In this document: positions 21,774 through 50,597 of the stretch, piece by piece
Layout of the letters: each line of letters opens with the position of its first letter
How positions within the stretch are numbered: position 1 is the stretch's first letter
Origin: Actinomycetes bacterium
GTDB taxonomy: Bacteria; Actinomycetota; Acidimicrobiia; Acidimicrobiales; RAAP-2
Direction of reading: 5' to 3'
Assembly (NCBI GenBank): GCA_021810205.1
Contig: JAJZJC010000010.1
Location: forward strand, 1-50,737
Length of the DNA stretch: 50,737 bases
Made by a program: the position numbers and the translations under genes
The notes under the pieces: generated by a model
The model's database searches: none
Seen by the model: the letters and a program-made list of their open reading frames with translations, nothing else
What the model was told of the DNA's origin: nothing

Positions 21774-23883
<2,110 letters not shown>

Positions 23884-23884
<1 letters not shown>

Positions 23885-32636: not shown

Positions 32637-32703
32637 CCGGACGCGGCGCAGGCCAAACCTTCGCGAACAGCCGCTCACCAGGGGACGCCCTGGCACGAGA
32701 CCG

Positions 32704-32733: not shown

Positions 32734-32738
32734 GAACC

Positions 32739-32801: not shown

Positions 32802-32947
32802 GGAGCGAGGTGACACCGGTCGCAGGGGGGGTCCGAGTCGGCAGTCCACTCCGGCGGCGCCGATGCGTGCCGTCGAGCCGCCGCCGAGTGGCCGGTGAAG
32901 TTGGTGCAACGAACGAGCAGTCGAGCAAGCACAGGAGCACGACGTCC

Positions 32948-35824: not shown

Positions 35825-36359
35825 TGCCCGGGTGAGGACGTTCGCTGCTGGCATCAGCACGCCAGGGTTCACGCGCCACCCGACGATGCCGGGCAACAAC
35901 GCGAACCAGCGGCTCACTCTCGCTGCGAGGACCGTGCCGATGAGCATGGAGGTGGCGGCGAGGAGGAACAGGATCCGATGCTTCGGCCACAGCGCTGGGC
36001 GCACGTTCGGGCGCGCCGCTCGCACGGCCTTGGCTCCTCGTCGGCCTGTTCTCCGTGTCCGTCGTGGTCAGCGTCGGGCCCGTGGGACCGGAGCTCAGCC
36101 GCTTGGGTGAACGACTGCTCGGCTCCTCCCTGGTTGTCGGACGCCGGCTCATGTACCTCTTGTGGGCGGTCGTCGCCGACTTCAGCGTGAAGTGGACGCT
36201 ACCGACCTGATCGGCAACTGGCGGGCGCTCGCGTGAGGCCTGCGTTGGAGCAACTGGACCGAGCGTGCCGGCCACATGGCCGCCACGCTCGAGAGCGGAT
36301 CGATCGCACGGCACACTTGACGCAGCGCGCACAGGACCAGGACGGGAGGACGAGCAACG
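35825..36359. other. 535-bp gap with no supported gene
   Basis: Two hydrophobic stretches appear on opposite strands: minus strand about 36020-35850 (ILFLLAATSMLIGTVLAARV) resembling part of a DUF2892 membrane domain, and plus strand about 36030-36210 (RPWLLVGLFSVSVVVSVGPV). The first has no stop before running antisense through nrdJ, and the second has no start codon before its hydrophobic part. They may be gene remnants. Confidence 0.4.
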
Positions 36360-37148
36360 GTGGCCTACTTCACGCGGATCGATGGCTCGAGATTCGAGGC
36401 GACCGCGCACGTGGGCGGCGCATGGGATCCCGCCGACCAGCACATCGCGCCGGCAATGGGGCTGCTCGCGCACGTGGTGGAGCTCGACCGTGACGCCCGT
36501 CGAACGGATGGCTTGGTGCTGGCGCGCCTCTCCTACGACATCCACGGCACGATCCCCGTCGACGTGGTGGACACCGAAGTACGGGTGCTGCGCGCGGGTC
36601 GCACGATCGAGCTGGTCGAAGCGCTACTCCGCCACGGCGGTCGCATCGCGCTGTCGCTGCGGGCATGGCTCATGCGCCGCTACGACACCACCGTGCTCGC
36701 CGGCTCGGCGCTTTCGTCCATTCCCGGTCCGGAGGAGATGCCGTCGTGGGACCCGTCGGCCGTGTGGCCCGGCGGGTTCGTCGCGTCGCTCGAGGTCCGC
36801 CGCGCCGAGGTGGAGCCCGGACGCGCTGCCTTCTGGATGCGACCCTCCGAGCGCCTCGTCGAGGGCGAGCCGGTCGGCGTGACCCCACGGGCTGCCGCCC
36901 TGTTCGACCTCGCGAACGGCATGACGGTACGGGCTGATCCTCGTGAGGTCGTGTTCTTGAACGTGGACCTCAGCGCGCATCTGCTCGACGCGCCCGACGG
37001 CGAATGGCTCGGCTTCGATACCACGGTTTCCTTCGGCGATGGCGGCCTCGGCATCACCGCCAGCACGATCCATGGCGTCCGTGGCGCCATTGGGACGGTG
37101 TCGCAGATGCTCACCGTCCGCCCCCGAGCACTGGGGGGTCCGCGGTGA
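36360..37148 (+). CDS. Thioesterase-superfamily (double hot-dog) protein
   Basis: A 262-residue protein resembling actinobacterial TesB-like double hot-dog acyl-CoA thioesterases: GGAWDPADQHIAPAMGLLAH at the N-terminus, PVDVVDTEVRVLRAGRTIEL in the first hot-dog, and PREVVFLNVDLSAHLLD with GEWLGFDTTVSFGDGGLGI in the second. It should hydrolyse acyl-CoA thioesters. It is convergent with the aromatic operon, so a role in that pathway is possible but not shown. GTG start, GGGAGGA upstream. Confidence 0.75.
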   Translation: MAYFTRIDGSRFEATAHVGGAWDPADQHIAPAMGLLAHVVELDRDARRTDGLVLARLSYDIHGTIPVDVVDTEVRVLRAGRTIELVEALLRHGGRIALSLRAWLMRRYDTTVLAGSALSSIPGPEEMPSWDPSAVWPGGFVASLEVRRAEVEPGRAAFWMRPSERLVEGEPVGVTPRAAALFDLANGMTVRADPREVVFLNVDLSAHLLDAPDGEWLGFDTTVSFGDGGLGITASTIHGVRGAIGTVSQMLTVRPRALGGPR

Positions 37149-37159
37149 GCCCGAGCCTG

Positions 37160-37177
37160 CCCTGACGAAGTTCAGGG
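37160..37177. terminator. Hairpin at the convergent end of the aromatic operon
   Basis: CCCTGA (37160-37165), loop of 6, TCAGGG (37172-37177). It overlaps the hcrB stop and lies 12 bp beyond the thioesterase gene. No T tract, so it is a weak candidate for a bidirectional terminator. Confidence 0.35.
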
Positions 37178-38173
37178 TACAGCTGCGGCTTGTGATGTCG
37201 CTGCCTGGCGGAACGCTTGGGCGACGATCTCTTTGACCATGCGCTTGCGCCACACGTAGCTCAGGTCGGCGTTGTCGAGGGGCTTGGCAAGGCGGCTCGC
37301 CGCGTTCGCCACCTCCTCGATGGCTTCCTCGTCCAGACGTTGTCCGACGAGCCCGTGCACGAGGTCGCCCAACTCGACCGGCTGCGAGGCGACGGCCCCC
37401 AGCACGAGGCGGCACCCCTCCACGACGCCCCGGTCCATCTTGAGCGCTACCGCTGCGCCGGCCAGCGGGAAGTCCATCGACGAGCGGCGCCGGAGCTTCA
37501 CGTAGGACGAGCGCGAACCGTCGGGCGCCGGCAGCCGAAGACGGGTGAGGATCTCGTCGGGTCCGAGCGCGAGGTGGGCATTGCCGTCGTCGCGAAAGAG
37601 CGAGGCGATGGGGACGTCCCGCTCTCCTTCGGGACCGACGACGACGGCCGTCGCGCCGAGGGCGACCGCGATCGGTGCCGTGTCCGAGGACGAGATCGCC
37701 CAGCAGCGCGGGCTGCTCGAGGCCATCTGGCACTGCTCACCGCCGGTCTTCAGGCAAGAGCCGCTGGCGATCCGCCACTCCTCGCTCATGTCGTAGTAGT
37801 TGCAGCGAGTGTCGATGCACAGGTTCCCGCCGGCCGTGCCGGTGTTGCGCAGGGCAGGCGTGGAGACGACGCCGGCTGCTTGCGCGTATCCCGGCTGGTG
37901 GCGGGCGAGCCCACTGTCCTTCAGCACCGAGGTGAGCGTCGCCGAGGCGCCGATCTCGACGGCACCCGACGCCGTCGTCTCCAGGTGGCGAAGCGCGTCG
38001 AGGTGGCCGATCCCGACGAGGACAGCCGGTTGCAGCTGGCGCCGCTTCATCTTCGGGAGCAGATCGGTGCCCCCGGCGATCACGCGTGCCTGGCCGCCAT
38101 GGTCGGCGAGCATCGCGACGGCCTCCGCCAGGCTGGCGGGGCGGAGGTAGCTAAAGCGCGGCAGACGCAGCAT
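37172..38173 (-). CDS. hcrB: 4-hydroxybenzoyl-CoA reductase, FAD/[4Fe-4S] subunit (beta)
   Basis: A 333-residue FAD-binding subunit of the xanthine-oxidase family (VIAGGTDLLPKMK, NTGTAGGNLC). It carries the insertion unique to 4-hydroxybenzoyl-CoA reductase: C124, C140, C148 and C157 have the same 16-8-9 spacing as the [4Fe-4S] ligands reported for Thauera aromatica HcrB (as I recall, C122/138/146/155). This extra cluster lets electrons run backward, from ferredoxin to substrate. That separates a true reductive enzyme from ordinary Mo-hydroxylases. Its ATG lies 23 bp inside the hcrA 3' end. Last gene of the operon. Confidence 0.92.
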   Translation of the reverse strand: MLRLPRFSYLRPASLAEAVAMLADHGGQARVIAGGTDLLPKMKRRQLQPAVLVGIGHLDALRHLETTASGAVEIGASATLTSVLKDSGLARHQPGYAQAAGVVSTPALRNTGTAGGNLCIDTRCNYYDMSEEWRIASGSCLKTGGEQCQMASSSPRCWAISSSDTAPIAVALGATAVVVGPEGERDVPIASLFRDDGNAHLALGPDEILTRLRLPAPDGSRSSYVKLRRRSSMDFPLAGAAVALKMDRGVVEGCRLVLGAVASQPVELGDLVHGLVGQRLDEEAIEEVANAASRLAKPLDNADLSYVWRKRMVKEIVAQAFRQAATSQAAAVP

Positions 38174-40598
38174 CGGGAGGAGCCACCTTTACGCACGGAG
38201 GATAGGGGATCATCGGGAACGCTCGAGGGCCGGTGCGGGGGTCGCCTCCTTTGGCGCGCGAGTCGAGGGCGCGCAGGACCTTCTCGGGCGTCACGGGGAC
38301 CTCGTCCACCCAGATGCCGAGCGCGTCGTGGATGGCGGACACAACCGCGGGGACGACCGGCAGCAACGGTCCCTGGCCGACCTCCTTCGCTCCGTACGGG
38401 CCCTCGGGATCGGGCTGCTCGACGAGGAGGTGCTCGATCTCGGGCATGTCGGTGGAGAGCGGGGTCTTGTACTCGAGCACCGAAGGGTGGTGGAGGAGGC
38501 CGTTGCGGTACACCTGCGCCTCCATGAGGGCCTCGCCCAACCCCATGTACACGCCGCCCTCCACCTGCCCGCGCACGAGGAGCGGATTGAGCGCGCGACC
38601 GATGTCGTGCGCGATCCAGACTTTGTTGACCCTCACCTCGCCGGTGACGCGGTCCGCGTCGAGGTCTACGACGGCGGCGGAGAAGCTGAACGCCGGACTG
38701 GGACCCACGGCGGAGCCGCGGTACTTGCTGCCAGAGATGTCGGGGGGCGGCGCGTAGCTGCCGCCCGAGCCGAGCGAGCCGTAGAGCTCCTCGGCAGCGA
38801 CCACGGCCTCCTCGAAGCTGAGCGGGCCTATCTTGCCGCCCGCCACGGTCATCTCGGTCGGCTGGGCGCCGCTGCGCTCGGCGGCGGCGGCGACGAGGGT
38901 CGCGCGCATCTTGCGGGCGGCCTCGATCGCCGCGTTGCCGGCCATGAACGTGACACGAGAAGAGTACGAGCCGAGGTCGACCGGGGTGAGCCCAGTGTCC
39001 CCGGTCACGAGGCGTACGTCTTCCCGCTCGAGGCCCAGCTCCTCGGCGACGAGCGTGGCGAGCACGGAGTCCGAGCCCTGCCCGATGTCGGTGGCCCCGC
39101 AGAGCACGGTGACGCCGCCGCGGCCCACCTCGATGTTCACCTCGCTGTGTGGCATGCGGTTGAGGTACATCGGGGACCCGGCGCCGCAGAGGTAGGCGGA
39201 GACGGCGAAGCCCTGCCCGTGCCCGTCGCGCCGCCGGCGCCGGGAGTAGCCGGAGGCCGCCAGCACCTCGGCGGTGACGTTCTCGATCGCGCACGAGGTG
39301 ATCCGCAGCCCGTTGACCGTCCGAGAGTTGGGTCGCACGTAGTTCCGCCTCCGCAGCTCCACCGGATCCATGCCGAGGTCCTCCGCGAGCTTGTCGAGGT
39401 GGAGCTCGAGAGCGAAGCGGGGCTGCGGGGTGCCGTGCCCGCGCTTCGGCCCGCAGGGCGCCTTGTTGGTGAAGACCCGGCAGCCCTCGAAGCGATACGC
39501 CGGAAGGTCGTAGGTCGCAGGTTGCAACGCGCCCGTGTAGTACGTGGTCGCCGCGCCGAGGGACCCATGGGCTCCGCCGTCGAGGGCCGTGCGGAAGTGC
39601 ATCGCTCGGATTCGGCCGTCTCGCGTCACGCCGGTGCGCACCCACATCAGCACCGGGTGCCGACCACGATGGTTGTAGAAGACCTCCTCCCGGGTGAGGG
39701 TGCACTTGACCGGCCGGCCCGTGGTCATCGCCAGCTTGGCGATGACGATCTCATGGGCGCAGGGGTCGACCTTGCCGCCGAAGCCGCCGCCGTGCGGCGT
39801 CGCCACGACGCGGACGTGACCCATCGGCAGCCCGAGCACGCTCGACAACGCTCGGTGCACATTGTGCGGCGACTGCGTCGAGCTCCACACGGTGAGCTGG
39901 CCGTCGGCGAAGGTGGCCGTCGCCGAGTGCTCCTCCATCGCCAGGTGGGTGCTGCCTTCGTAGAAGAAGACGTCCTCCCGGACGTGGTCGGACGCCGCGA
40001 AGCCCTCCTCCACGTCGCCGAACTCGAGCGCTGCCAGACGGTGGATGTTGCTGTCCTTCGAGGCGGCGTGGATCGGCTCGTCCATCGGGACCTCGAGTGC
40101 CTGGTCGATCGAGGTCACGGGCTCGAGCAGCTCGTAGTCGACGTGGATCTTCTTGCATGCCTCGCGCGCCGTCGCCTCGTCACGGGCCGCCACGGCCGCC
40201 ACCGGCTCGCCCACGTAGCGGACCTTTTCGGTCGCGAGCGCCTGCTCCTCCTCGCTCGACGGGCTGACCCCGAAGCGAGTCGGCATCGCGGCCCCGGTGA
40301 GGACGGCCACGACGCCTGGGACTCCGGCCGCCTCCCGCACGTCGACGCCGCGGATCCGGGCGTGGGGGTGGGGGCTGCGCAGGAGCACGCAGTGGATGGT
40401 CCCGGGGAACGTGAGGTCGTCCGCATAGACCGTCCGACCCGTCACCTTCGAGACGGCGTCGACCCGCGGCATCGCCTTGCCGACGACCCGGAGCGCCCCG
40501 CCGGCCGACTCGATCGTGGCCGACTCGATCGTGGCCGACTCGATCGTGGCCGACTCGCTGGCGAGCCGACCATTCGCCCCTCCACGAGGGGCACTCAC
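38151..40598 (-). CDS. hcrA: 4-hydroxybenzoyl-CoA reductase, molybdopterin subunit (alpha)
   Basis: An 815-residue molybdenum-cofactor subunit. Motifs include VTGRTVYADDLTFPG, GGGFGGK (residues 270-276), KRGHGTPQPRFALE and GATDIGQGSDSVL. The enzyme removes the para-hydroxyl of 4-hydroxybenzoyl-CoA to give benzoyl-CoA. One oddity: in AKEVGQGPLL the position of the family's active-site glutamate (VGE) appears to be Q742 (codon CAG, 38375-38373). The N-terminus has a repeat ESATI x3 before the conserved domain at residue 35. GTG overlaps the hcrC stop (GTGA). Gene order C-A-B matches Thauera hcrCAB. Confidence 0.9.
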   Translation of the reverse strand: MSAPRGGANGRLASESATIESATIESATIESAGGALRVVGKAMPRVDAVSKVTGRTVYADDLTFPGTIHCVLLRSPHPHARIRGVDVREAAGVPGVVAVLTGAAMPTRFGVSPSSEEEQALATEKVRYVGEPVAAVAARDEATAREACKKIHVDYELLEPVTSIDQALEVPMDEPIHAASKDSNIHRLAALEFGDVEEGFAASDHVREDVFFYEGSTHLAMEEHSATATFADGQLTVWSSTQSPHNVHRALSSVLGLPMGHVRVVATPHGGGFGGKVDPCAHEIVIAKLAMTTGRPVKCTLTREEVFYNHRGRHPVLMWVRTGVTRDGRIRAMHFRTALDGGAHGSLGAATTYYTGALQPATYDLPAYRFEGCRVFTNKAPCGPKRGHGTPQPRFALELHLDKLAEDLGMDPVELRRRNYVRPNSRTVNGLRITSCAIENVTAEVLAASGYSRRRRRDGHGQGFAVSAYLCGAGSPMYLNRMPHSEVNIEVGRGGVTVLCGATDIGQGSDSVLATLVAEELGLEREDVRLVTGDTGLTPVDLGSYSSRVTFMAGNAAIEAARKMRATLVAAAAERSGAQPTEMTVAGGKIGPLSFEEAVVAAEELYGSLGSGGSYAPPPDISGSKYRGSAVGPSPAFSFSAAVVDLDADRVTGEVRVNKVWIAHDIGRALNPLLVRGQVEGGVYMGLGEALMEAQVYRNGLLHHPSVLEYKTPLSTDMPEIEHLLVEQPDPEGPYGAKEVGQGPLLPVVPAVVSAIHDALGIWVDEVPVTPEKVLRALDSRAKGGDPRTGPRAFPMIPYPPCVKVAPPDAASAAL
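40507..40557 (-). repeat. 15-bp in-frame minisatellite at the hcrA 5' end
   Basis: GACTCGATCGTGGCC (plus strand) is repeated three times exactly (40507-40551) with a partial fourth copy. On the coding strand it gives ESATI repeats. It lies between the start codon and the first conserved strand of HcrA, where disorder is expected. Confidence 0.95.
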
Positions 40599-41068
40599 CG
40601 CGCACCCCGCATCGTGTTCGTCGCCTGGGCGACCGCGTCGACGATGCTCGCGTAGCCCGTGCACCGGCACACGTTGCCGGCCAGGGCGGCGCGGATCTCC
40701 TCGCGGGTCGGGTCGGGCTGCTCGTCGACCAGCGCCTTTGCGCTGAGCAGCATCCCGGCGGTGCAGTAGCCGCACTGCGAGGCCCCGAGCGCCATGAACG
40801 CCTCTTGGAGAGGGTGCAGCGCCGGTCCCTCGGCGAGCCCCTCGACGGTCGTCACCTCGGCGCCTTCGAGCTGGTCGGGCAGCACCAGACACGAGAGCAC
40901 CGGCATCCCGTCGAGGAGCACCGTGCAGGCGCCGCACTCGCCCAGCTCGCAGCCGTGCTTGGTCCCCGTGAGACCCAGCCGCTCCCGCAAGATCTCGAGC
41001 AGCGTCTCACAGCTCTCTGCGAGCGTCTCGTAGCTCTCGCCGTTCACCCGCAGGCGCAGCACGCTCAC
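40595..41068 (-). CDS. hcrC: 4-hydroxybenzoyl-CoA reductase, [2Fe-2S] subunit (gamma)
   Basis: A 157-residue protein with the two [2Fe-2S] sites of the xanthine-oxidase family: plant-type C40, C45, C48, C60 (HGCELGECGACTV) and the helical-domain cluster C99, C102, C134, C136 (CGYCTAGM, CRCTGY). It relays electrons between HcrB and the molybdenum site. GTG overlaps the ferredoxin stop and its own stop overlaps hcrA, giving a tightly coupled fdx-hcrC-hcrA run. Confidence 0.92.
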   Translation of the reverse strand: MSVLRLRVNGESYETLAESCETLLEILRERLGLTGTKHGCELGECGACTVLLDGMPVLSCLVLPDQLEGAEVTTVEGLAEGPALHPLQEAFMALGASQCGYCTAGMLLSAKALVDEQPDPTREEIRAALAGNVCRCTGYASIVDAVAQATNTMRGAR

Positions 41069-41352
41069 TGCCTGCTCACCCAGCTCTCCACGAGCTCCCG
41101 TGCCGCCACGGGGTCCTCGAAGTGCAGTCGGTTGATCCGGGTGAACTCCTTCCATTCCGGCCGCAGGTCCGGCTCGAAGGCGATCGCCTCGACGGGGCAG
41201 GGCTCCACGCACGCAGCGCAGTCGATGCACACCGTCGGGTCGATGAAGAGCATCCGGTCGCCCTCGTCGGCGCTGATGCAGTCGACCGGGCACACGTCGA
41301 CACACGAACGATCGAGCGTGTCGATGCACGCGGCCCCGATCACGTACGCCAT
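41065..41352 (-). CDS. Two-cluster ferredoxin, likely donor to both reductases
   Basis: A 95-residue ferredoxin. Cysteines lie at 9, 17, 21, 25 (CIDTLDRSCVDVCPVDC) and 42, 45, 48, 52 (CIDCAACVEPCP). The N-terminal spacing C-x7-C-x3-C is like seven-iron FdxA proteins, so one cluster may be [3Fe-4S]. The second is a standard [4Fe-4S] motif. In Thauera a ferredoxin gene belongs to the bcr cluster and supplies benzoyl-CoA reductase. Here it lies between the bcr and hcr blocks and could serve both. ATG 41352 has GAGGTGG upstream and is preferred to the in-frame GTG 9 bp earlier. Confidence 0.85.
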   Translation of the reverse strand: MAYVIGAACIDTLDRSCVDVCPVDCISADEGDRMLFIDPTVCIDCAACVEPCPVEAIAFEPDLRPEWKEFTRINRLHFEDPVAARELVESWVSRQ

Positions 41353-41427
41353 GATGTCCACCTCGCTTCCTGTGAGCCCGGCCTGTCCCCGCCGTTCTCC
41401 TCGGTTCTTCGATTCTCGACTCGCATT

Positions 41428-42666
41428 TCACGTCCCTTCATGGGCGGGGCGCACGTCTACTCGAGAACGAGGCGTGTGGCCGCGCTGGTTGGTGGCGAGT
41501 CGCTCGAGGAGGGCGGAGGCCTCGGGCAGCTCGGTGGCCGGCTTCGCTTCGAGGACCTGCGCGTCGACCATGGCGGACACCCACTCAGCGGCGATCGGCG
41601 TGCGGACGACAGCCATCGTCCAGCCGTCCATGCCGACGCCTCCGGCCGAGAGGTCTGCCCATTCGCCGGCGAAGTCGGTGCAGCTGCCGCACTGCGGGCG
41701 CACCGTCGGTCGGACCTCGCGCAGGGGGACATGGAGGACGTTGCCTTCTCCCACGTGGGCCTTCGAGCCGGAGACCTGTCCCTCGGCGACGTGGTCGAGG
41801 TTCTGGTCCGTGTGGACGAGCAGCTTGCCCTTGATGTTGACCTTGGTGATCCGAGCGAGATCGAGGCCGAACCGCTCCTCGAGCAGGCCGTGGAGGAACG
41901 CGTCCTCCTCGAAGGTCTCGCTGCACATGAGGGCGATCGAGAGCACGACGGGGCGGAAGCGCTTCAGCCCGCTCGTCTGTCCTTTGACGAGGCCGGCCAC
42001 CTGGCAGGGCAGCCCGACGAATGCGAGGCGCAGCTTCGGGGAGGCGTCTTGGAGCATGAGCAGGTTGCGCGAGTAGGTGTAGCGGGAGCCGGCGGACGTG
42101 AGGACCTCGTCGGGGTCCGTGACGACGACTGGCAGGTTGCGCCAGGGCTGCTCGGGGTCGTGACGGCTGACGACGGCGGCGTCGACACGTCCGGTCCGCA
42201 TCGCCCAGGCGAGCATGGCGGTGACGAGCCCGCCGTCCTGGCCGTTGCTGGCGATGGCCCGTAGGGCGAGACGGTCGAGCTCGGTGCCGACGACCTCGTC
42301 GGGTCGCCGGGCACGTCCGAAGCGACCGACGTCGAGCGCGGCCGGGTCCGGGCGGAAGCGAGCGCAGACCCTCGTGCAGACGTCGCAGCCGGCGTCGCCA
42401 AAGCGGCAGCCAGCCGGACCGGACTCCTCGTCGGTCTGGTAGGGGCGGGTACCGGTGGTGGAGTAGTCGAGCACCCGCCGCGGGCAGGCGACGACACAGG
42501 CCCCGCAGCCGGCGCAGACGTCGGTGACGACCACCTCGCGGTACAGGTCGGACCAGCTCGGCTTCGCAGGGGCGTCCTCAGAGCGCGCGGAGCCGGTTGT
42601 CTCCTCGATCGTGTCGACCGTTTCGATCGTGCCGGCCGTTGCCGGCGCGGCTTGGACGGTGGTCAT
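41428..42666 (-). CDS. FrhB-like F420 hydrogenase/dehydrogenase beta-subunit family protein
   Basis: A 412-residue iron-sulfur flavoprotein of the coenzyme F420 hydrogenase/dehydrogenase beta (FrhB/FpoF) family. Two N-terminal cluster sites are visible: C51, C54, C57, C61 (CAGCGACVVACP) and C87, C94, C97, C101. NGQDGGLVTAMLAWAMRTG and FVGLPCQVAGL are family motifs, and PQCGSCTDFAGEWADLSAGG is the typical late signature. Family members pass electrons between F420H2 and iron-sulfur partners. It lies 7 bp after bcrD and before the ferredoxin, so the likely role is to reduce that ferredoxin with F420H2. A different hydride donor is possible. Confidence 0.85.
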   Translation of the reverse strand: MTTVQAAPATAGTIETVDTIEETTGSARSEDAPAKPSWSDLYREVVVTDVCAGCGACVVACPRRVLDYSTTGTRPYQTDEESGPAGCRFGDAGCDVCTRVCARFRPDPAALDVGRFGRARRPDEVVGTELDRLALRAIASNGQDGGLVTAMLAWAMRTGRVDAAVVSRHDPEQPWRNLPVVVTDPDEVLTSAGSRYTYSRNLLMLQDASPKLRLAFVGLPCQVAGLVKGQTSGLKRFRPVVLSIALMCSETFEEDAFLHGLLEERFGLDLARITKVNIKGKLLVHTDQNLDHVAEGQVSGSKAHVGEGNVLHVPLREVRPTVRPQCGSCTDFAGEWADLSAGGVGMDGWTMAVVRTPIAAEWVSAMVDAQVLEAKPATELPEASALLERLATNQRGHTPRSRVDVRPAHEGT

Positions 42667-42673
42667 CGCGGCC

Positions 42674-43492
42674 CTACGAGACCGTGATCCGCCGCCCGGC
42701 GGACGCCACGCGGTGGCGGTGGCGTCCGGCCAGCGCCGCCCCGAGCGCGAGCACGTCTTGGACCTCCTCGGGCGGTGGCACGTGGGCGTCGCCACCGAGC
42801 GCGTCGGCCAGCACGGACGCCATCGACTCGAACCGGAGGATGCCGCCGATCAAAGTGAACTCGGGCTCCATCTTGGCCCGCTTCATGAGCTGGACCGAGC
42901 GGGACACGAGGGAGGTGATCGCGCCCTGCATGATGTCGGCAGGGGCCACTCCCTGGGAGAGGTGGTTGATCACCTCGGCCTCGGCGAACACCGCGCAGAC
43001 CCCTGAGATCGGGACCTCCTCGCGGGAGGTGGCGGCGAGCGGTCCAATCTCCTGGGTGCTGAACCCCATGTAGCCGGCCGTCTTCTCGAGGAAGGCGCCC
43101 GTGCCCGCTGCGCACTTGTCGTTGAGGCGGAACGAGATCACCGTGCCTCGGCCATCGGTCCGGGAGACCTTCATCGTCTGGCCGCCGACGTCGAGGATGG
43201 TCCGGGTGCCGGGGTAGAGGAAGCAGGCGCCCCAGACCGCTGCGGTGAGGTCGGTGACGTTGAGCTGGCGGGCGGCGAACTGGAACCGGCCGGTGCCGGT
43301 GGTGGTGACGTAGGCCACCTCGCCCGGCTCGAGCCCCGTCCCGGCGAGGGCCTCGTCGAAGGCGCTCTGGGCCGCCTCGGCGAGGCGGTAGCCGGTGCGC
43401 CGCAGGGCGCGACCGACCACCTCGCCATCTTCGGCGACGACAACCGCCTTGGTGTAGGTGGAGCCGATGTCGATGCCGGCGTAGTGAGTCAT
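42674..43492 (-). CDS. bcrD: Benzoyl-CoA reductase ATPase subunit D
   Basis: A 272-residue member of the BadF/BadG/BcrA/BcrD ATPase family. ATP-binding GIDIGSTYTKAVV (residues 6-18) and DVGGQTMK (101-108) are clear. C127 (NDKCAAGTG) and C166 (SGVCAVFAE) are the cluster ligands that, paired with the A subunit, hold one [4Fe-4S] between the two chains. Together A and D use ATP to push electrons onto the B/C subunits. It starts 14 bp after bcrA. Confidence 0.87.
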   Translation of the reverse strand: MTHYAGIDIGSTYTKAVVVAEDGEVVGRALRRTGYRLAEAAQSAFDEALAGTGLEPGEVAYVTTTGTGRFQFAARQLNVTDLTAAVWGACFLYPGTRTILDVGGQTMKVSRTDGRGTVISFRLNDKCAAGTGAFLEKTAGYMGFSTQEIGPLAATSREEVPISGVCAVFAEAEVINHLSQGVAPADIMQGAITSLVSRSVQLMKRAKMEPEFTLIGGILRFESMASVLADALGGDAHVPPPEEVQDVLALGAALAGRHRHRVASAGRRITVS

Positions 43493-43506
43493 CACTGCCT
43501 CCCTCT

Positions 43507-44316
43507 TCAGACGCCTGCGGGTGCGTGCTTGGCGACGATGCGGTCCATGGCGAACAGCGACGCGCCGAGGGCACCCATGAAGTGCGAGTCCTCTCCGCAG
43601 TTGACGGGGAAGCCGAGCATGTCGGAGACGACGTTGACCATGCCGACATTGCGGGCGACCCCGCCGGTGAAGGTGACCTCCTCTTCGATGCCCACCCGGC
43701 GGAGCAGTCCCAGGGCCCTCGAGGCGACCGACTGGTGCACCCCGAGGAGGATGTCCTCGTCGCGCTTGCCCTTGGCGAGCCAGGCGAGGATCTCGGACTC
43801 CGCGAAGACCGTGCACGTCGTCGAGATGCGCACGGGCTTGTCCGAGCGCAGCGCCGTGGGTCCGAGGTCGTCGAGGGGCAGCTCGAGCGCCGAGGCGGCG
43901 GCGCCGAGGAAGCGCCCGGTGCCGGCCGAGCACTTGTCGTTCATCGCGAAGTCGAGGACCTCGCCGCGCTCGTTCACCTTGATCGCCTTGGTGTCCTGGC
44001 CGCCCATATCGAGCACCGTCCGGGTCCGGGGGAACATCTGGACTGCGCCGCGGGCGTGGCAGGAGATCTCGGTCGTCTGGGCGTCCCCGAAGGTCACCCG
44101 GAACCGGCCGTAGCCGGTCCCGATGACGTAGCCGACCCCGTCCTTCTCCTCGTCGATGTCGCCGTCGCGAAGGGCGAGCTCGTAGGCGCGCTCGGCTGCA
44201 AAGGTCACGTTCGAGCCGGTGTCGATGAGCGCCCGACCGGCGATGTGGAGCCGCTCGTCGATGATCACGGCCTTGGTCTGGGTGGAACCCACGTCCACGC
44301 CTGCCGCATAGGTCAT
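43507..44316 (-). CDS. bcrA: Benzoyl-CoA reductase ATPase subunit A
   Basis: A 269-residue BadF/BcrA-family ATPase, paralogous to the next gene. [13 protein letters not shown] (6-18), DMGGQDTK (103-110), C129 (NDKCSAGTG) and C168 (TTCTVFAE) are intact. Two different ATPase genes side by side are characteristic of class I benzoyl-CoA reductase. 2-hydroxyacyl-CoA dehydratases have a single homodimeric activator. The chain is much shorter than the long BcrA of Thauera, as I recall it (about 430 residues), and nearer the short subunits of the Azoarcus bzdP/bzdQ type. Confidence 0.85.
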
Positions 44317-44407
44317 TGTCCGTCTCTCCTTTCTGCTGCTCGCCTCGTCGGCTGCTCCCGACCCGACCCGGCCGCGCGATGGTCGGCGCGTTCGCGCCGG
44401 GTGCCCG

Positions 44408-45742
44408 TCACGACCGTGCCCCGGCGAGCAGGCGCCTGGTCTCGAGGCCCTCGAAGAACGCGTCGACACGGTTGCGCATGCCTGCCTCTGCGACGACGCG
44501 GGGATCCATGTGGTCCGAGTCGATGAGCAAGGCGTTGACGTCCGTCTGCTCCAACACCGCTCGCCGGCTGTCGGCGAGCCCGGAGGACACGGTCCTGCAG
44601 GACTTGATCGCGTGGAAGACGATCCCGTCGATGCCGTACGGCTCGGCCATGTCGGCCAGGACTCGGTCGACATGGAACATGGTGTCCATCGCGGCCCGGC
44701 CGGTGACGAGCAATCCCTCGGCCAGGCTGTCGAGGGGTCGGGAAAGGTCGTACTCGTAGCCGGTGCTCCAGCCGCCCGACGCGAACCAGGTGTAGCTCGA
44801 GCCGACGAAGATCCCGCCGTGCTGGGTGAACATCTCGGAGAACTTCCGGTAGATCGGGTAGCACGGGACACCTACGAAGGCGAGGCGGTGGCGCTCCTCG
44901 AAAGGAGTCCCCAGGCCGCGGGCCGCCTTGTACTCGAGCTCCTCGACGACGTCGTGGAAGTAGTCGGCACCCTCGGCGCGGCCGCGCAAGGCGTTCACGA
45001 CGCCCAGGTAGACGGTCCCGTCGGTCACCGCGTTGAACACCGCGGGGCGGGCCTTGTTCAGGTCGAGCACCCGCACCCAGGCGCGGGTCATCGAGTTGGC
45101 GTGCGTCATCGCCTCGACGAGACGGTCCTGGTCGAAGCGCCGTCCGCTGACCTGCTCGCAGACCTCGATGAGCTCGTCGACCTGGCCGCGCACGTAGGCG
45201 AGGTCGTTCTCGTAGTCGACGTGCCCGCGCCCGGGAAGGCGACCGCCTGCCCTCGAACCGGGGATGTCGAGGGTCACGATCGGGATGTGGTACAGCCGCT
45301 CCCAGATCTCCGCCCACTTGATGTAGGTGTTGCAGACGTTCGTCTGGAGGGCGAGGTCGGGGGGCGGGATGCGGCCCATCGGGTGGTCCCCGCCGCGCAG
45401 CTGCATGCCGACGTCGGCCTTCACGTAGCCGCAGACGTCCGTGGCGTACCCGTAGCCCTCCGCCTGGTCGATGTAGTCCTCGGCGACGTGGCGCACTGCG
45501 GTCTGGAGCCCGTTGATCTCGGGCAGGACGAGGTTGAAGCCGAACGATTCGAGCAGCTCTGCGGCGCTGCCCATCACGAACACGTACGCCGCCTTCTCAC
45601 CCCGCTCGGGTCCCGAGCTCACGCGGCCGTACCACTCCTTGAACAGCCGGTTGCCTTCTCGGTTGCCCCGGCCGATCAGCTCCGAGGTGTCGACGGTCGC
45701 CTGTGCCGCGACCTTCGGGCTCGTGTCGTTGTCCATCTTCAT
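44408..45742 (-). CDS. bcrB: Benzoyl-CoA reductase subunit B
   Basis: A 444-residue HgdB/BcrB-family protein. Three spaced cysteines suited to [4Fe-4S] binding are visible in [30 protein letters not shown] and [16 protein letters not shown]. With BcrC it forms the module that binds benzoyl-CoA and reduces the ring by two electrons to cyclohexa-1,5-diene-1-carbonyl-CoA. The ATG overlaps the bcrC stop (ATGA), which selects 45742 over the ATG at 45736. A 91-bp gap without features separates it from bcrA. Confidence 0.87.
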
Positions 45743-46917
45743 ACCTCCGCGCCGGCGAACAGGACGTTCTCGATGAACGTCTCGAGCTGGATCTGCAGCG
45801 AGTCGAAGCTCGTCATGTTCTCTTCGAACTCGTTGACGAAGTACGGGATCCCCTCCGCCTCGAGGACCCGCACGTAGGGCACCTGCTCGTCGAGGCCGGG
45901 CTCGCACATCTTGGCGGCGCTGATGATCGCCGCGCCCGCACCGGACTCGCGGATGCGGCGGAGCAGCATCTCCTCCTTCGGCTTGCGGTCGTCGTGCTGG
46001 ACCGGGCTGTAGGACGAGTGGTCGAGGTATGCCGTCACCAGGTTGGCGAGCGGGTCTCCATCGGTGGGGACGTCCTCCAAGAGCCAGCGGAGACCGACGA
46101 GCAGGTCGTCGTCGACGACGTAGGAGGACTGGGCGATCGTCGTGAGAAGGTCCAGAGGCGGCTGCTCGCAGAAGCCACCCTCGAAGACGATCCGCATCCG
46201 GTCCTGCGGGGCCGTCCCGCGCTGCTCGAGCATCGGGAGGACCGCGCCGAGGAGACGGTTGTGCTCCTCCCGGGGGATGCGCCCGCCGAGGGCCACGAGC
46301 ACGTACGCCTCGTCCACCGCCAGCAGCCAGGGGGTCTCGCGCTTGATCTCGTAGAGGCGGCGGAGGAGGCGCCGGTTCTCGTTGTAGACCGCGATGGACC
46401 GGCGCAGGTCGTCGTCGCTCACGGTCCGGCCCGCGATCTCCTCGAGCCCTCGCTGCAGGCGCTGGTACTCGCCGCGAAGGTACGTCGCTGCATGCCTCGA
46501 CGTGGGGTTCTGCGGGAGGTAGAGGATCTCGCAGGGGTACGAGACGTTGCGACCCCATACGGCCGCCAGGTTGCGGGCGGTGTCGCAGATCGGGTGGGAG
46601 ACGAACATCTCGAGCTCGAGACGCCCCGAGAGGGCGAGCTCGAGGGAGGTCTTGACGATCGAGCAGAGGTTCGAGCCGAAGTGCGCGTCGCCTTGGCGGG
46701 CCTCGATCGGCGCTCCGTGGATCTTGACCGGGAGCAGCCCGGCCGCCGAGGCGATCTCCTCGGGGAAGTAGACCTGGAAGTGGCCGACGACCTTGCCGCC
46801 ATGCTCCCGCCACCGACGGACCGTCGGGTAGTCGGGGTCCTCGACGAGGTCTCGACAGTGGCGGAGCAGCTCGTCGAGGGAGAGCCCGCTCCAGTCGTCC
46901 AGCACGTGCGTGCCCAT
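45739..46917 (-). CDS. bcrC: Benzoyl-CoA reductase subunit C
   Basis: A 392-residue HgdC/BcrC-family protein. Cysteines at SNLCSIVKTSLELA, SHPICDTARNLAAVWG and EGGFCEQPPLDLL are the expected cluster ligands, and VVGHFQVYFPEEIASAAGLL is a typical family N-terminus. First gene of an operon in the order C-B-A-D, the same as bcrCBAD/bzdNOPQ. A clear promoter and the ribosome site GGGAGGG (minus strand of 46922-46928) lie just upstream. Confidence 0.87.
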   Translation of the reverse strand: MGTHVLDDWSGLSLDELLRHCRDLVEDPDYPTVRRWREHGGKVVGHFQVYFPEEIASAAGLLPVKIHGAPIEARQGDAHFGSNLCSIVKTSLELALSGRLELEMFVSHPICDTARNLAAVWGRNVSYPCEILYLPQNPTSRHAATYLRGEYQRLQRGLEEIAGRTVSDDDLRRSIAVYNENRRLLRRLYEIKRETPWLLAVDEAYVLVALGGRIPREEHNRLLGAVLPMLEQRGTAPQDRMRIVFEGGFCEQPPLDLLTTIAQSSYVVDDDLLVGLRWLLEDVPTDGDPLANLVTAYLDHSSYSPVQHDDRKPKEEMLLRRIRESGAGAAIISAAKMCEPGLDEQVPYVRVLEAEGIPYFVNEFEENMTSFDSLQIQLETFIENVLFAGAEV

Positions 46918-46948
46918 CGCACCCTCCCGATCTGTCGGCCCCTGCCGG

Positions 46949-46977
46949 ATAGTTTTTTCTACTCACCAGCCGGTCAA
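46949..46977 (-). promoter_or_regulatory. Promoter of the bcr-hcr operon
   Basis: On the minus strand TTGACC (46977-46972), 17-bp spacer, AACTAT (46954-46949). The start would fall near 46942, leaving a leader of about 25 nt with GGGAGGG before the bcrC ATG. The surrounding 190 bp are unusually AT-rich for this window, which suits a regulated promoter. I see no convincing perfect operator palindrome overlapping it. Confidence 0.65.
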
Positions 46978-47108
46978 CTGAATTACTACGAGAATGCGCC
47001 TCGACAGCACGGAGGTCTAGGGACCTTTGGCCCTATGCGGCTCGAGTGCTCCAAAAGTGGCTGACGGCGACGTGGCGGCCCCGCTCGCCACGCTGGCCGT
47101 GGGGTCCG

Positions 47109-47732
47109 TCAGGCGCCGGGCCCCAAGATGAGCTCGATGCAGGTGGTGGCGAAGCGCTCCGGATCGTCGCGGGTCGGGTCGAACCACTTGTAGACCCAGC
47201 TCGTCATCCCGAGGATGGCCTGGGCTCCGTAGCGCGGGTCGACGGGCGAGAGCGAGCCCTGGTCGACGGCGCTCGCCACCGCCTCGCGGAAGATACGGAG
47301 GTACTGCCGCTCCTTGGCCCGGATCTCGGACTCGTACGCAGGGGCGAGGCGCGGCCGCTGGTCGAAGAAGACCGTGAAGAAGGCCGGCTCGCGGGCGACG
47401 TTCACCGTCTGGTCCCGGATGAGCGTCTCGAGGCGCTCACGGGGATCCTCGATGAGCAGCGCGTCCGCGAGGCGCGCCAGCGCCAAGGAGATCGCGCGGT
47501 CGAACACCAGGTACAAGAGCTCGGCCTTCGAGTGCACGTAGTAGTAAAGGCTGGCCTTGCGCAGGTCGAGCGCGGCAGCCACGTCGTCGAGCGAGCCGGC
47601 GTCGTACCCCTTGGCCTGAAACACCCGCGCGGCCGTCTCGACGATCTCGCTCGTGCGGGCCACGAACTCCGGGCTGGGCTCCAGGTTGCGCGGCCGGCCG
47701 GGGCGACGCGGGGTTGTCCGCTCAACGGCCAT
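47109..47732 (-). CDS. TetR-family transcriptional regulator
   Basis: A 207-residue regulator with an N-terminal helix-turn-helix (IVETAARVFQAKGYDAGSLD, then LDLRKASLYYYVHSKAELLY) and a C-terminal ligand domain of the KstR2-like type. Such regulators often sense acyl-CoA thioesters. It lies directly upstream of bcrC on the same strand, 191 bp away, and is divergent from the hydroxyacyl-CoA dehydrogenase, so it may control either. The frame continues upstream to an ATG at 47816. I prefer 47732 because it gives a normal family length with a basic start (MAVERTTPRRPGRPR). Confidence 0.85.
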   Translation of the reverse strand: MAVERTTPRRPGRPRNLEPSPEFVARTSEIVETAARVFQAKGYDAGSLDDVAAALDLRKASLYYYVHSKAELLYLVFDRAISLALARLADALLIEDPRERLETLIRDQTVNVAREPAFFTVFFDQRPRLAPAYESEIRAKERQYLRIFREAVASAVDQGSLSPVDPRYGAQAILGMTSWVYKWFDPTRDDPERFATTCIELILGPGA

Positions 47733-47946
47733 CGAGCGGACCGATTCGTCGTGCGAGCGCGCCCGGACCATGGTCTCGTCGTCTGCCCGAACATGCTCGT
47801 CGAGGCAGGCCTTCACCGGATGCTCGTTGTTCTTGCACCTTCGCCTCCGTCACCCCGTGGCTGCCGGCGATGGCGCCTCGGCGCTCCGAGGCCGACGTGC
47901 CGGATGTCGACGCCGAGCTTGACCTACTGGACGTAAGAAAAATATA

Positions 47947-47959
47947 CTCGACGGTCGAG
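47947..47959. promoter_or_regulatory. Perfect 13-bp palindrome in the tetR-dehydrogenase intergenic region
   Basis: CTCGAC-G-GTCGAG lies in an AT-rich stretch (AAGAAAAATATA just before) between the divergent TetR and dehydrogenase genes. Its place makes it a candidate operator for the TetR protein. No second exact copy is seen near the bcrC promoter. The rest of 47817-48078 shows nothing else clear. Confidence 0.4.
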
Positions 47960-48078
47960 GGAACGGGATCACGCGTGTGCGACGCGAGCACGAGATGCAG
48001 TGCAGCCCCGCGGGGTTGCCCCGCGAGATGTAGAGCAACGCGTCGTCATCGCGCGAGCCCGATATCGAGGGAGAGTTG

Positions 48079-48966
48079 GTGACGACGGACAACGGTCACG
48101 GTGCGGACGGGCAGCATGGCGCCGTCGCTGTGGTCGGCGGCGGCGTCATGGGGAGTGGGATCGTGCACGCCTTCTTGGTCGCGGGCCGGCGAGTCACCCT
48201 CGTCGAAGTCGACGACAAGGCGGCGGCCGTGAGCCGCGAGCGGATCGGAGCCCACCTGGAGGAGAGCGCCCGGCGAGGCCGTCTCGACGAGCCGATCGAA
48301 GTGGCCCTTTCCCGCGTCACCATCGTCCACACGGGCCTCGAGGGCCTCGAGGCCGAGGACGTCACCCTTGCGATCGAGGCGGTGCCGGAGGTCGCGTCGC
48401 TCAAGCTCGAGGTCCTCGCGCGCCTCGAGGCATTCGTCGAGGACGACGCCGTGGTGGCGACGAACACGAGCAGCATCGCGATCGGCGAGCTCGCGGCCGG
48501 TCTCGACCGCCCCGAGCGCTTCCTCGGCCTCCACTTCTTCAACCCGGTGCCCGCCAGCCTCCTCGTCGAGGTCGTCGTGGGGCAGCACACGAGCCCGTCG
48601 ACGCTCCAGCGGGCGAAGGCGCTCGTCGAAGCGATCGGCAAGCAGGCCGTCGTCGTGAGGGACTCGCCAGGCTTCGCCACGAGCCGGCTGGGCGTGCTCC
48701 TTGGGCTGGAGGCAATTCGGATGCTCGAGGAGGGCGTCGCTTCGTCCGAGGACATCGATCGGGCGATGACGCTCGGCTACAAGCACCCGGTGGGGCCGCT
48801 GCGCTTGACCGACCTCGTCGGGCTCGACGTGCGCCTCGCCGTTGCCGACTACCTTCGCACGGCGCTCGGCGACCGCTTCGAGGCGCCGGCACTGTTGCGC
48901 GACAAGGTCGAACGAGGCGAGCTCGGTCGCAAGTGCGGGAAGGGCTTCTTCTCCTACGGTTCCTGA
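48079..48966 (+). CDS. 3-hydroxyacyl-CoA dehydrogenase (PaaH/FadB2-like)
   Basis: A 295-residue NAD-dependent enzyme. Rossmann motif VVGGGVMGSGIVHAFL near residue 20, ATNTSSIAIGELA with the catalytic-region Ser, HFFNPVP carrying the catalytic His, and C-terminal domain GYKHPVGPLRLTDLVGLDV. It oxidises 3-hydroxyacyl-CoA in beta-oxidation-like steps. Next to the aromatic operon it could act in the lower pathway after ring opening. GTG 48079 is preferred to the adjacent TTG 48076. GAGGGAGA lies upstream. Confidence 0.85.
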   Translation: MTTDNGHGADGQHGAVAVVGGGVMGSGIVHAFLVAGRRVTLVEVDDKAAAVSRERIGAHLEESARRGRLDEPIEVALSRVTIVHTGLEGLEAEDVTLAIEAVPEVASLKLEVLARLEAFVEDDAVVATNTSSIAIGELAAGLDRPERFLGLHFFNPVPASLLVEVVVGQHTSPSTLQRAKALVEAIGKQAVVVRDSPGFATSRLGVLLGLEAIRMLEEGVASSEDIDRAMTLGYKHPVGPLRLTDLVGLDVRLAVADYLRTALGDRFEAPALLRDKVERGELGRKCGKGFFSYGS

Positions 48967-49058: not shown

Positions 49059-49078
49059 TGAGAGTATGACTACTCTCA
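49059..49078. promoter_or_regulatory. Perfect inverted repeat before the DUF6788 gene
   Basis: TGAGAGT, six-base spacer, ACTCTCA. It lies 36 bp upstream of the chosen start. It may be an operator or the remnant end of a mobile element. A hairpin in the leader RNA is also possible. Confidence 0.45.
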
Positions 49079-49113
49079 GCGCCAACAGGTGGGATACTCG
49101 CACAGGAGTCGAG

Positions 49114-49470
49114 ATGGCGACCAGACGAACTACCAGGCGGCTCGAGCGCTACGAGGAGCGCTATCGCGAACTGGCCCGACAGCTCGCCCACATCGGCTAC
49201 ATCGTGCCGGGAAGCCTCGCCCAGCGCTTCACGCGCTGCGGCAGAGCAACCTGCGCGTGTTCAGCCGAGCCTCCCAAGCTCCACGGCCCGTACTGGCACT
49301 GGAGCACCAAGGTCAACGGCAAGACGGTGAACCGGCGTCTGAGTGAGCGAGAGGCCACGCTCTACAACGAGTGGATCGACAACGACCGTCGCGCCAAGGC
49401 GTTGTTCGCCCAGATGCGCGAGGTCGCGGCCAAAGCCACCGAACTGATCATCGAAGAGGAGCCGGGGTAG
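49114..49470 (+). CDS. DUF6788 family protein
   Basis: A 118-residue protein: basic N-terminal helix (RRTTRRLERYEERYRELARQ), then GYIVPGSLAQRFTRCGRATC with CxRxxCxC cysteines (ATCACS), then GPYWHWSTKVNGKTVNRRLS and a C-terminal helix. I recognise DUF6788, a family often found in or next to transposable elements. No function is known. An upstream in-frame ATG at 49066 lies inside the palindrome. ATG 49114 has CAGGAG at correct spacing. Confidence 0.75.
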   Translation: MATRRTTRRLERYEERYRELARQLAHIGYIVPGSLAQRFTRCGRATCACSAEPPKLHGPYWHWSTKVNGKTVNRRLSEREATLYNEWIDNDRRAKALFAQMREVAAKATELIIEEEPG

Positions 49471-49489
49471 GGCGTCGGGAATTCAATCG

Positions 49490-49530
49490 CAAGCCAAAGG
49501 AAGCAAGCCAGGGGAACAAGCCAAAGGAAA
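49490..49530 (+). repeat. Three imperfect 13-14-bp direct repeats
   Basis: CAAGCCAAAGGAAG, CAAGCCAGGGGAA and CAAGCCAAAGGAAA follow each other between the DUF6788 and PaaX-like genes. Their A-rich composition differs from the surroundings. They could be regulator sites or mobile-element remnants. Confidence 0.6.
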
Positions 49531-49676
49531 CGGTGTTGGGCATCGTCCGGTCAGATCAACATCCCGAAGGCCGCGTTGGTGTCGCTGGTGCAGCGGCGGC
49601 ACAAGGAGGTGACAGTCCGAGTCGTGATGGCGACAGATCAGGCTCCGCGCTGGCGAACGAGGAGGCGCGGCGTCTG

Positions 49677-50597
49677 GTGGCGGTGCGCGGCCAGGTCCCG
49701 CTGGCGGTCGCCCCCGACGGACCCGAAAGCATCCCGCAACGCCGCTCCTTGGGTGGCCAGAGCGCCCGCTCGCTGCTGCTCACCGTGCTGGGTGAGTATG
49801 TCCTGCCCCGCAGCGGCACCGTGTGGACCTCCACCCTGCTCGAAGCGCTCGCGCTCTTCGGCGTGGAGGACAAGGCGGGTCGCCAGACCCTGGTCCGTGC
49901 TGCCAAGGCAGGGTGGCTGGCCAGCGAGCGAATCGGCCGCGAGACGCGCTGGCATCTGACGGAGCAGGGCACGACGCTGTTGGCAGAGGGCTCCGGTCAT
50001 ATCTACGCCTTTGATCCGACGCGCCGGGACTGGGATGGCAAGTGGCTGGTGCTGGTCATCTCGATCCCCGAGGAGCGCCGCGCCGATCGCCACCTGCTGC
50101 GGACCCGGTTGGCGTGGGCGGGCTTCGGCTCCCTCGGCCAAGGAGTGTGGCTCGCCCCCGACACCGGGCGCCAGTCGGTCATAGAACCGATCAGCAAGGG
50201 CCTGCAACGCCCCACGCGCCTTGTGTGCTTCGTCGCGGAGCTCGGTGAGATCGGCGACGACGCAGAGCTGGTCCACGACGCTTGGAACCTCGAGGACCTC
50301 GAGCAGCGCTACCGGGCGTTCATCACCGAGTTCACCGGGGTGGCGGAGGGCGAGCCGTCGGCGGCCTTCACCGTGCAGACCCGTCTGGTCCACGAGTGGC
50401 GCAAGTTCCCGTTCATCGATCCGGGCCTTCCGACCGACCTTTTGCCCCCGGACTGGCCGGGGCATCGGGCTCACGCCCTTTTTGGGCAGCTGCACGAGCG
50501 CCTGGCGGCCGGCGCCGGCGCGTGGTTCGACGAGACCGAACGGCGCGCCGATGCCCGCCACTGGGGTCCGCCAGCCAGGCCGACGCCTGCCGGCTGA
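49677..50597 (+). CDS. PaaX-family transcriptional regulator
   Basis: A 306-residue protein. The N-terminal winged helix (SARSLLLTVLGEYVLPRSGT, LLEALALFGVEDKAGRQTLV, then RETRWHLTEQG) and the middle domain WDGKWLVLVISIPEERRADR with LRTRLAWAGFGSLGQGVWLA identify the PaaX family. PaaX represses phenylacetate genes and is released by phenylacetyl-CoA. Relatives respond to other aromatic CoA thioesters. Close to the benzoyl-CoA operon, control of aromatic catabolism is plausible. GAGGAGG at 49659-49665 favours GTG 49677, though GTG 49683 is possible. Confidence 0.8.
   Translation: MAVRGQVPLAVAPDGPESIPQRRSLGGQSARSLLLTVLGEYVLPRSGTVWTSTLLEALALFGVEDKAGRQTLVRAAKAGWLASERIGRETRWHLTEQGTTLLAEGSGHIYAFDPTRRDWDGKWLVLVISIPEERRADRHLLRTRLAWAGFGSLGQGVWLAPDTGRQSVIEPISKGLQRPTRLVCFVAELGEIGDDAELVHDAWNLEDLEQRYRAFITEFTGVAEGEPSAAFTVQTRLVHEWRKFPFIDPGLPTDLLPPDWPGHRAHALFGQLHERLAAGAGAWFDETERRADARHWGPPARPTPAG

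Follow-up and report, generated by a model that had tools for sequence, protein, structure and literature searches.

Class I benzoyl-CoA reductases, reported to spend one ATP per electron (PMC11971306), have been described in several forms: the four-subunit BcrCBAD of the Thauera type, with two ATPases; BzdNOPQ (PDB 8s02); and the 3-methylbenzoyl-CoA reductase (MBR) MbdN/O/Q/P of Aromatoleum (Azoarcus) sp. CIB (PDB 9g87, 9gai), whose genes are reported to share one operon with those for ring cleavage (the mbdO-orf9 operon; PMC4424350). Among electron donors, KorAB has been described for Thauera and AadN for Rhodopseudomonas (PMC9973337), and an Hdr-IFO complex has been proposed for Chloroflexi (PMC5736913). 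Here we analyze a stretch of 50,737 nucleotides (nt), hereafter the window, which is the whole of contig C161 in a 72% complete genome (G000; 3.0 Mb in 177 contigs) of an Actinomycetes bacterium and which carries, at 37172-46917 on the minus strand, nine co-directional genes assigned as follows, from 5' to 3':

45739..46917, minus: MbdN-like (BcrC-like) subunit of a class I, MBR-type benzoyl-CoA reductase (PDB 9g87, TIGR02263)
44408..45742, minus: MbdO-like (BcrB-like) subunit with the predicted catalytic [4Fe-4S] and substrate site (PDB 9g87; ligands C104/C137/C382)
43507..44316, minus: MbdQ-like (BcrA-like) ATPase subunit of the electron activator (PDB 9gai, PF01869)
42674..43492, minus: MbdP-like (BcrD-like) second, distinct ATPase subunit (PDB 9gai, PF01869)
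41428..42666, minus: FrhB-like flavo-iron-sulfur protein, candidate F420H2:ferredoxin oxidoreductase (PF04422, PF04432, PDB 8riu)
41065..41352, minus: FdxA-like ferredoxin, 8 Cys (NF045480, Cys positions)
40595..41068, minus: HcrC, small subunit with two [2Fe-2S] (PF01799, PF00111, TIGR03193)
38151..40598, minus: HcrA, molybdopterin large subunit, start GTG 40598 or ATG 40472 (TIGR03194, PDB 1rm6)
37172..38173, minus: HcrB, FAD subunit with a four-Cys [4Fe-4S] insertion at C124, C140, C148 and C157 (PDB 1rm6, TIGR03195)

We consider it probable, with good confidence, that this run encodes the reductive steps at the heart of an anaerobic benzoyl-CoA pathway, the 4-hydroxybenzoyl-CoA reductase HcrCAB and an MBR-type reductase being combined with a ferredoxin carrier and with exchange of electrons with F420H2 through FrhB. 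HcrCAB (Mo, FAD, iron-sulfur) would dehydroxylate 4-hydroxybenzoyl-CoA, its presumed substrate, to benzoyl-CoA, which the MBR-type class I enzyme would convert to a cyclic dienoyl-CoA, with MbdQ and MbdP hydrolysing ATP and driving single low-potential electrons into MbdN and MbdO. The ferredoxin would be the electron carrier, presumably shared by both reductases, and FrhB would swap electrons between F420H2 and ferredoxin, more likely on behalf of Hcr than of the ring reductase. Neighbouring genes for a CoA ligase, enoyl-CoA hydratases, a BadH-like dehydrogenase, an Oah-like hydrolase, a CoA transferase and a 3-hydroxyacyl-CoA dehydrogenase may make or use the CoA esters involved.

The nine-gene run and its probable ring reductase

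A preliminary description of this DNA had announced nine co-directional genes, many with overlapping stop and start codons; all nine indeed lie on the minus strand, and such overlaps are present at three of the eight junctions, or at four if HcrA starts at GTG 40598. From 5' to 3' the gaps are -4 nt (MbdN/MbdO), 91 (MbdO/MbdQ), 14 (MbdQ/MbdP), 7 (MbdP/FrhB), 75 (FrhB/ferredoxin), -4 (ferredoxin/HcrC), 122 (HcrC/HcrA; -4 with the GTG start) and -23 (HcrA/HcrB), the non-overlapping junctions thus spanning 7 to 122 nt. The segment 40473-40598, upstream of ATG 40472, is likely an N-terminal extension of HcrA in which a five-residue unit occurs three times. Presumably the nine genes are co-transcribed from one promoter; a sigma-70 scan of 36900-48100, uninformative in such GC-rich DNA, gave a single site on the opposite strand (0.4 expected), and of five terminator-like sites in the same interval (2.3 expected) none lies on the minus strand at any operon junction.

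The arrangement is not due to chance, given that the identical nine genes in identical order are found in three of 12 congeneric genomes, with protein identities of 85-98% and dN/dS values against these three congeners of 0.07-0.36 (0.30-0.39 for the upstream TetR gene); the operon genes are under purifying selection. A binning artefact is ruled out by the presence of the same run in three congeners, although all these genomes are metagenome bins. The MbdN alignment, run against named genomes, gave 340 relatives, of which the best 80 were examined together with locus L040 (81 loci in all, in stretches of 3-21 kb); among these the co-directional nine-gene run is confined to L041-L043, and Hcr genes lie within the stretch of the reductase genes in L041-L046, L074 and L077.

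All four reductase subunits have MbdN/O/Q/P as their nearest solved relatives. The MbdN subunit scores 534 bits against MbdN of 9g87, compared with 128.7 for HadC and 98.3 for BzdN, and the MbdO subunit 491.4 bits against MbdO of 9g87, compared with 124 for HadB and 109.2 for BzdO. Two distinct BadF-type ATPases, as the preliminary description maintained, are encoded: one matches MbdQ of 9gai best (377.4 bits), the other MbdP (261.7 bits versus 176.1 for MbdQ). The class I layout is present, with two PF06050 matches (HGD-D-type catalytic subunits) and two of PF01869 (the ATPases), the latter being the sole ones found in the incomplete window genome. The Thauera-type enzyme shares four subunits, two ATPases and the predicted class I chemistry, but all four window proteins miss the equivalog cut-offs of its models TIGR02259/02260/02261/02263 (score/cut-off in bits: C 249.6/421.15, B 211/486.55, A 216.3/578, D 128/312.85). 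With model scores this far below the cut-offs an assignment to either the Thauera or the Bzd type is ruled out, and the label bcrC-B-A-D given previously has to be corrected to MBR type. Phylogenetic analysis is compatible with this assignment: in a tree of MbdO homologs with 106 rows, 78 MBR rows, Aromatoleum MbdO among them, group together against 27 dehydratase rows (support 99), and the same 78 rows stand against 25 dehydratase rows (support 100) when three long rows are removed. These are quick trees, in which the position of the long-branched Aromatoleum MbdO inside the MBR group is unsure and from which Thauera-type Bcr rows are missing, so that the preference for MBR over Bcr rests on scores.

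The active-site residues bear on the same question. In BzdO, the catalytic cluster ligands are given as Cys95, Cys128 and Cys380 and the acid/base groups as Glu65 and His131 (PMC11971306). The three ligands align with C104, C137 and C382 of the window MbdO, which are Cys in 78, 78 and 77 (one gap) of the 78 MBR rows; the BzdO copy in the family alignment ends before Cys380, the C382 match being taken from the pairwise printed alignment, and the Glu65 equivalent lies outside the BzdO fragment aligned. The His131 position is Tyr140 here, with Tyr in 77 of 78 MBR rows, Phe in the CIB enzyme and Val or Met in all 27 dehydratase rows; taken together, residues 140/321/383 read Y/A/R in 77 of 78 MBR rows, whereas all 27 dehydratase rows read V or M/W/K. 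Six cysteines are reported to hold the [8Fe-9S] cluster of BzdN (PMC11971306); three of them have Cys at the aligned positions of the window MbdN (85, 111 and 338; 86 of 86 MbdN rows), whereas BzdN C36, C263 and C293 are not kept. The N subunits of the MBR type have particular cysteines of their own, C250 (86/86 rows) and C129 (70/86), and the CIB protein shows the same pattern as the window protein. From the alignment, the second cluster of the MBR-type N subunit is thus probably held differently from that of BzdN.

Several of these observations weigh against the proposed reading, namely the scores of every operon protein, which fall short of the cut-offs of the curated equivalogs for Bcr, Bzd or Hcr, the composition of the trees, the replacement of His131 and the three missing BzdN cysteines. 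The first four genes could instead specify a 2-hydroxyacyl-CoA dehydratase and the activator belonging to it, with a role in the metabolism of amino acids or of aromatic side chains: the superfamily is the same (PF06050 and PF01869), and the three catalytic [4Fe-4S] cysteines are common to dehydratases and hence not specific. We regard this possibility as very improbable, in view of MbdN and MbdO scores about four times those of dehydratases, the separation of the two groups in the tree, the difference at residues 140/321/383, the linkage of reductase genes to Oah-like and Hcr genes, and the two distinct ATPases, compared with one activase in each of two plasmid clusters. The latter, in Azoarcus KH32C and Rhodococcus ruber, were met in a plasmid search for annotated Bcr relatives that turned up nothing closer than 22-27% matches, in 8 records, and look like dehydratase clusters. 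On the two points on which the preliminary description had staked its reading, the B subunit stands apart from 2-hydroxyacyl-CoA dehydratases and an Oah-like hydrolase is encoded in the genome.

The probable 4-hydroxybenzoyl-CoA reductase and its proposed electron supply

HcrABC of Thauera aromatica (PDB 1rm6) is the best solved match of both HcrA (561.1 bits, followed by CoxL at 282.4) and HcrB (206.2 bits, the next solved match reaching 107). The four-cysteine insertion of HcrB, previously called diagnostic, is confirmed by alignment with the solved enzyme, whose insertion cysteines coincide with C124, C140, C148 and C157, which we take to be [4Fe-4S] ligands. Of 13 distinct loci that have an HcrB-like match, 12 retain all four; L068, 36% identical, does not, and by this cysteine test is not Hcr. 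The differences from the Thauera enzyme are that the window genes form an operon with FrhB and ferredoxin and that the subunits stay below the NCBIfam equivalog cut-offs (HcrA, TIGR03194, 775.9 bits against 994.55; HcrB, TIGR03195, 286 against 404.55; HcrC, TIGR03193, 172.1 against 257.8). HcrC also scores higher with glyceraldehyde dehydrogenase gamma (193.3 bits, below cut-off) than with Hcr gamma, a further point on the contrary side, and by these scores HcrC alone leaves the Hcr assignment unsettled.

The FrhB-like protein, with 12 Cys, contains the N and C domains of FrhB_FdhB (PF04422 and PF04432) above cut-off, and among solved proteins its six closest relatives are all F420 enzymes. 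It aligns over residues 35-393 (115.8 bits) with 8riu, an F420-reductase subunit in which a ferredoxin domain carrying two [4Fe-4S] is described as preceding a domain that holds one [4Fe-4S] and FAD (PMC11493965). The N-terminal ferredoxin domain and the FrhB domain are shared, but 8riu is a subunit of the CO dehydrogenase complex of Ca. Ethanoperedens thermophilum (PMC11493965), whereas the window protein is encoded beside Hcr and a ferredoxin, itself scoring 97.3 bits with NF045480 (FdxA_Actino; cut-off 125). CofE, an enzyme of F420 synthesis, is present above cut-off in 9 of 9 genomes searched, and in 3 of 14 control genomes, all archaea.

Searching 29 genomes for FrhB of at least 50% identity yields seven loci, each with Hcr alongside. 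Two belong to the window genome, one in the window itself and a second copy on contig C77; the others are those of the three congeners, L045 and L159. In L045 and C77 the order is Fd-HcrC-HcrA-HcrB-FrhB, and the L045 set is oriented away from the reductase genes. The C77 set (locus L157, about 4383-9555) is 67-79% identical to that of the window, and its FrhB matches in two stretches in different frames. From these separate sets, FrhB and ferredoxin appear to be primarily Hcr partners that were fused to the reductase genes in the window genus. No such FrhB lies near the Hcr loci L044, L046, L160, L161, L074 and L077, and it is therefore not essential to Hcr. That FrhB is a general housekeeping copy is ruled out by a separate paralogue (~40-45% identical) in congeners with and without the operon, and is further opposed by the location of the operon-type copy beside Hcr. 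The earlier notion that the operon joins both reductases to their electron supply accordingly holds insofar as FrhB and ferredoxin are part of the run, but FrhB is tied to Hcr and not to the ring reductase.

These separate sets also bear on substrate. The closest solved enzyme being 3-methylbenzoyl-CoA reductase, and the Fd-Hcr-FrhB set lying apart from reductase genes in L045 and at C77, the ring reductase might act mainly on a substituted benzoyl-CoA, such as 3-methylbenzoyl-CoA, with Hcr in a separate route. The presence of both sets in one co-directional run in the window genus, and the fact that the usual product of Hcr is benzoyl-CoA, make this unlikely in our view. A likelier rival concerns the donor: FrhB could be a flavo-iron-sulfur adaptor that works without F420 and draws on NAD(P)H or some other donor, or it could run in reverse, from reduced ferredoxin to F420H2. 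The FrhB family includes the non-F420 enzyme 5dqr, which counts against the F420 proposal, and the potential of F420H2 is about -0.36 V. A Thauera ferredoxin is reported at -587 mV (PMC9973337); F420H2 would donate only weakly to a ferredoxin near -0.59 V, and transfer from F420H2 through ferredoxin to Hcr is therefore more plausible than transfer to the ring reductase. With F420 enzymes as the six best solved relatives and with CofE present, we give these non-F420 or reverse schemes a substantial but somewhat less than even chance, the use of F420 by FrhB remaining plausible. Elsewhere, genes resembling the alpha subunit of indolepyruvate:ferredoxin oxidoreductase, possibly an alternative ferredoxin donor, lie near the reductase in seven of the 81 loci (L063, L068, L069, L084, L095, L106 and L118), mostly in Chloroflexota and Gemmatimonadota.

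Neighbouring genes, lower pathway and oxygen

Further features flank the operon in the window:

47109..47816, minus: TetR-family regulator directly upstream of the operon (PF00440, PF17932; syntenic in L037-L039)
48076..48966, plus: divergent 3-hydroxyacyl-CoA dehydrogenase, candidate lower-pathway enzyme (NF006722, 274.7 bits, cut-off 429)
49371..50597, plus: open reading frame with a PaaX-family regulator, homology from residue 134, at the contig end (TIGR02277, 194.4 bits, cut-off 264.55)

A DUF6788 gene (49066-49470) lies between the dehydrogenase and PaaX, near a break in gene order relative to the congeners, and an acyl-CoA thioesterase-like gene (36360-37148) converges with hcrB. Farther away are an alpha-glucan cluster (12354-23884: GlgE, alpha-amylase/maltokinase, 4-alpha-glucanotransferase and branching/debranching-type genes), a gene of the luciferase-like monooxygenase family (24554-25471), which has many F420-dependent members, and a class II (B12-dependent) ribonucleotide reductase (32732-35824), with what appears to be its shadow, an open frame of 1116 residues, on the other strand at 32675-36025.

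With neighbour families assigned by representative, the 81 loci contain, near the reductase genes, Oah-like genes (45 loci), Had-like genes (22), BadH-like short-chain dehydrogenases/reductases (SDR; 27), PaaX-like regulators (24) and, in 39, a crotonase cluster that mixes Dch-like with general hydratases. In the window genome, the Oah-like gene is located at C28:35933-36994 and shares 81% identity with the L044 gene. At the end of C28, the last 230 nt equal the last 204 nt of the window in reverse complement, exactly save for one 26-nt insertion that resembles a tandem copy, and the gene order in congeners, Oah-hemerythrin-PaaX, agrees; hence C28 is likely to adjoin the window contig. Compared with strain CIB, then, hcrCAB, frhB and ferredoxin continue the run and the Oah-like gene would lie upstream. 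C28 also encodes a benzoate-CoA-ligase-like protein, a BadH-like SDR (278 bits, cut-off 431), an acyl-CoA dehydrogenase, hydratases and a two-gene CoA transferase.

The search for lower-pathway genes, recommended in the preliminary description, had a mixed outcome that adds to the contrary evidence. Oah-like and ligase-like genes were found, both below cut-off (217.3 bits with the best family, TIGR03200, cut-off 464.45; and 341 bits, cut-off 375), but Dch and Had orthologs were not. Had is not represented above cut-off in the incomplete G000 or in G007, G008 or G009, whereas G386 has it at 426 bits near its reductase genes. Dch is likewise missing above cut-off from 8 genomes, including G000 and three congeners; the best scores were 83.7 bits in G000 and 193 bits in G386, the latter beside its reductase, and 7 of 14 control genomes matched as well. 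A hydratase and a dehydrogenase among the neighbours presumably take the place of Dch and Had.

The claim of strictly anaerobic degradation finds no support, as the aerobic BoxB is encoded in all three congeners with the operon. BoxB is above cut-off in 15 of 29 genomes and in none of the nine congeners without the operon, and was not found in the incomplete window genome. Its co-occurrence with the operon suggests a facultative lifestyle, such as is described for denitrifiers (PMC10803450). BoxB-type genes, flanked by a crotonase-domain gene, lie near reductase or Oah genes in L047, L074, L077, L131 and L132 (TIGR03225, 779 bits for that of L047), and in eight of the 81 loci (L044, L045, L047, L048, L049, L060, L065 and L088) the reductase genes have a hemerythrin-domain gene nearby, which possibly serves oxygen handling for an oxygen-sensitive enzyme. 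The most elaborate scheme, whereby FrhB oxidises F420H2, the FdxA-like ferredoxin feeds both Hcr and the MBR-type reductase, an SDR and a general hydratase replace Had and Dch ahead of the Oah-like hydrolase, and the organism is facultative, is tentative and, taken as a whole, doubtful.

Spread and meaning of the MBR clade

Among 61 related genomes, an MbdO search (E <= 1e-20) gave 5 matches, in the window genome, in three of the 12 congeners (94% identical) and in one other family of the order (60%). Among 396 genomes of the phylum (E <= 1e-25) there were 35, of which four, the window included, reach at least 45% identity; the others listed, at no more than 32%, were treated as dehydratase-like. 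The best MbdN relatives come from Actinomycetota, Chloroflexota, Acidobacteriota, Gemmatimonadota and Planctomycetota, with single rows of others, and nearly all are metagenome bins; one Gemmatimonadota chromosome (L084) has two reductase gene sets ~7 kb apart. The statement that these enzymes occur mainly in Proteobacteria and a few archaea is thus too narrow: several uncultured phyla share the gene family, and for Chloroflexi a class I enzyme has already been reported (PMC5736913). In the 106-row tree, the window groups with 16 named Actinomycetota rows (support 100), with the actinobacterial rows L040, L133, L134 and L135 placed elsewhere, which suggests that actinobacteria acquired the MBR genes more than once.

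Each enzyme type is already known, and bcrBC and boxBC are listed for uncultured UBA5794 actinobacteria in a 2025 paper (PMC12008989). Within the open-licence literature, mostly judged from listings, we found no paper on the nine-gene operon. What is new, then, is the fusion of the nine genes into one run, the association of FrhB with Hcr and, across the genomes examined, how broad the MBR clade is. Anaerobic ring reduction is little documented in Actinomycetota, and the operon layout is unusual. The MBR-type reductase, known from Aromatoleum, is one member of a clade across several uncultured phyla, so that surveys relying on Thauera-type models and their cut-offs will overlook it. A conserved operon with named partners makes the proposal testable. 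An F420-linked donor system, if real, would differ from KorAB and AadN, and should FrhB supply Hcr with electrons from F420H2, aromatic dearomatisation would become linked to the metabolism of deazaflavins.

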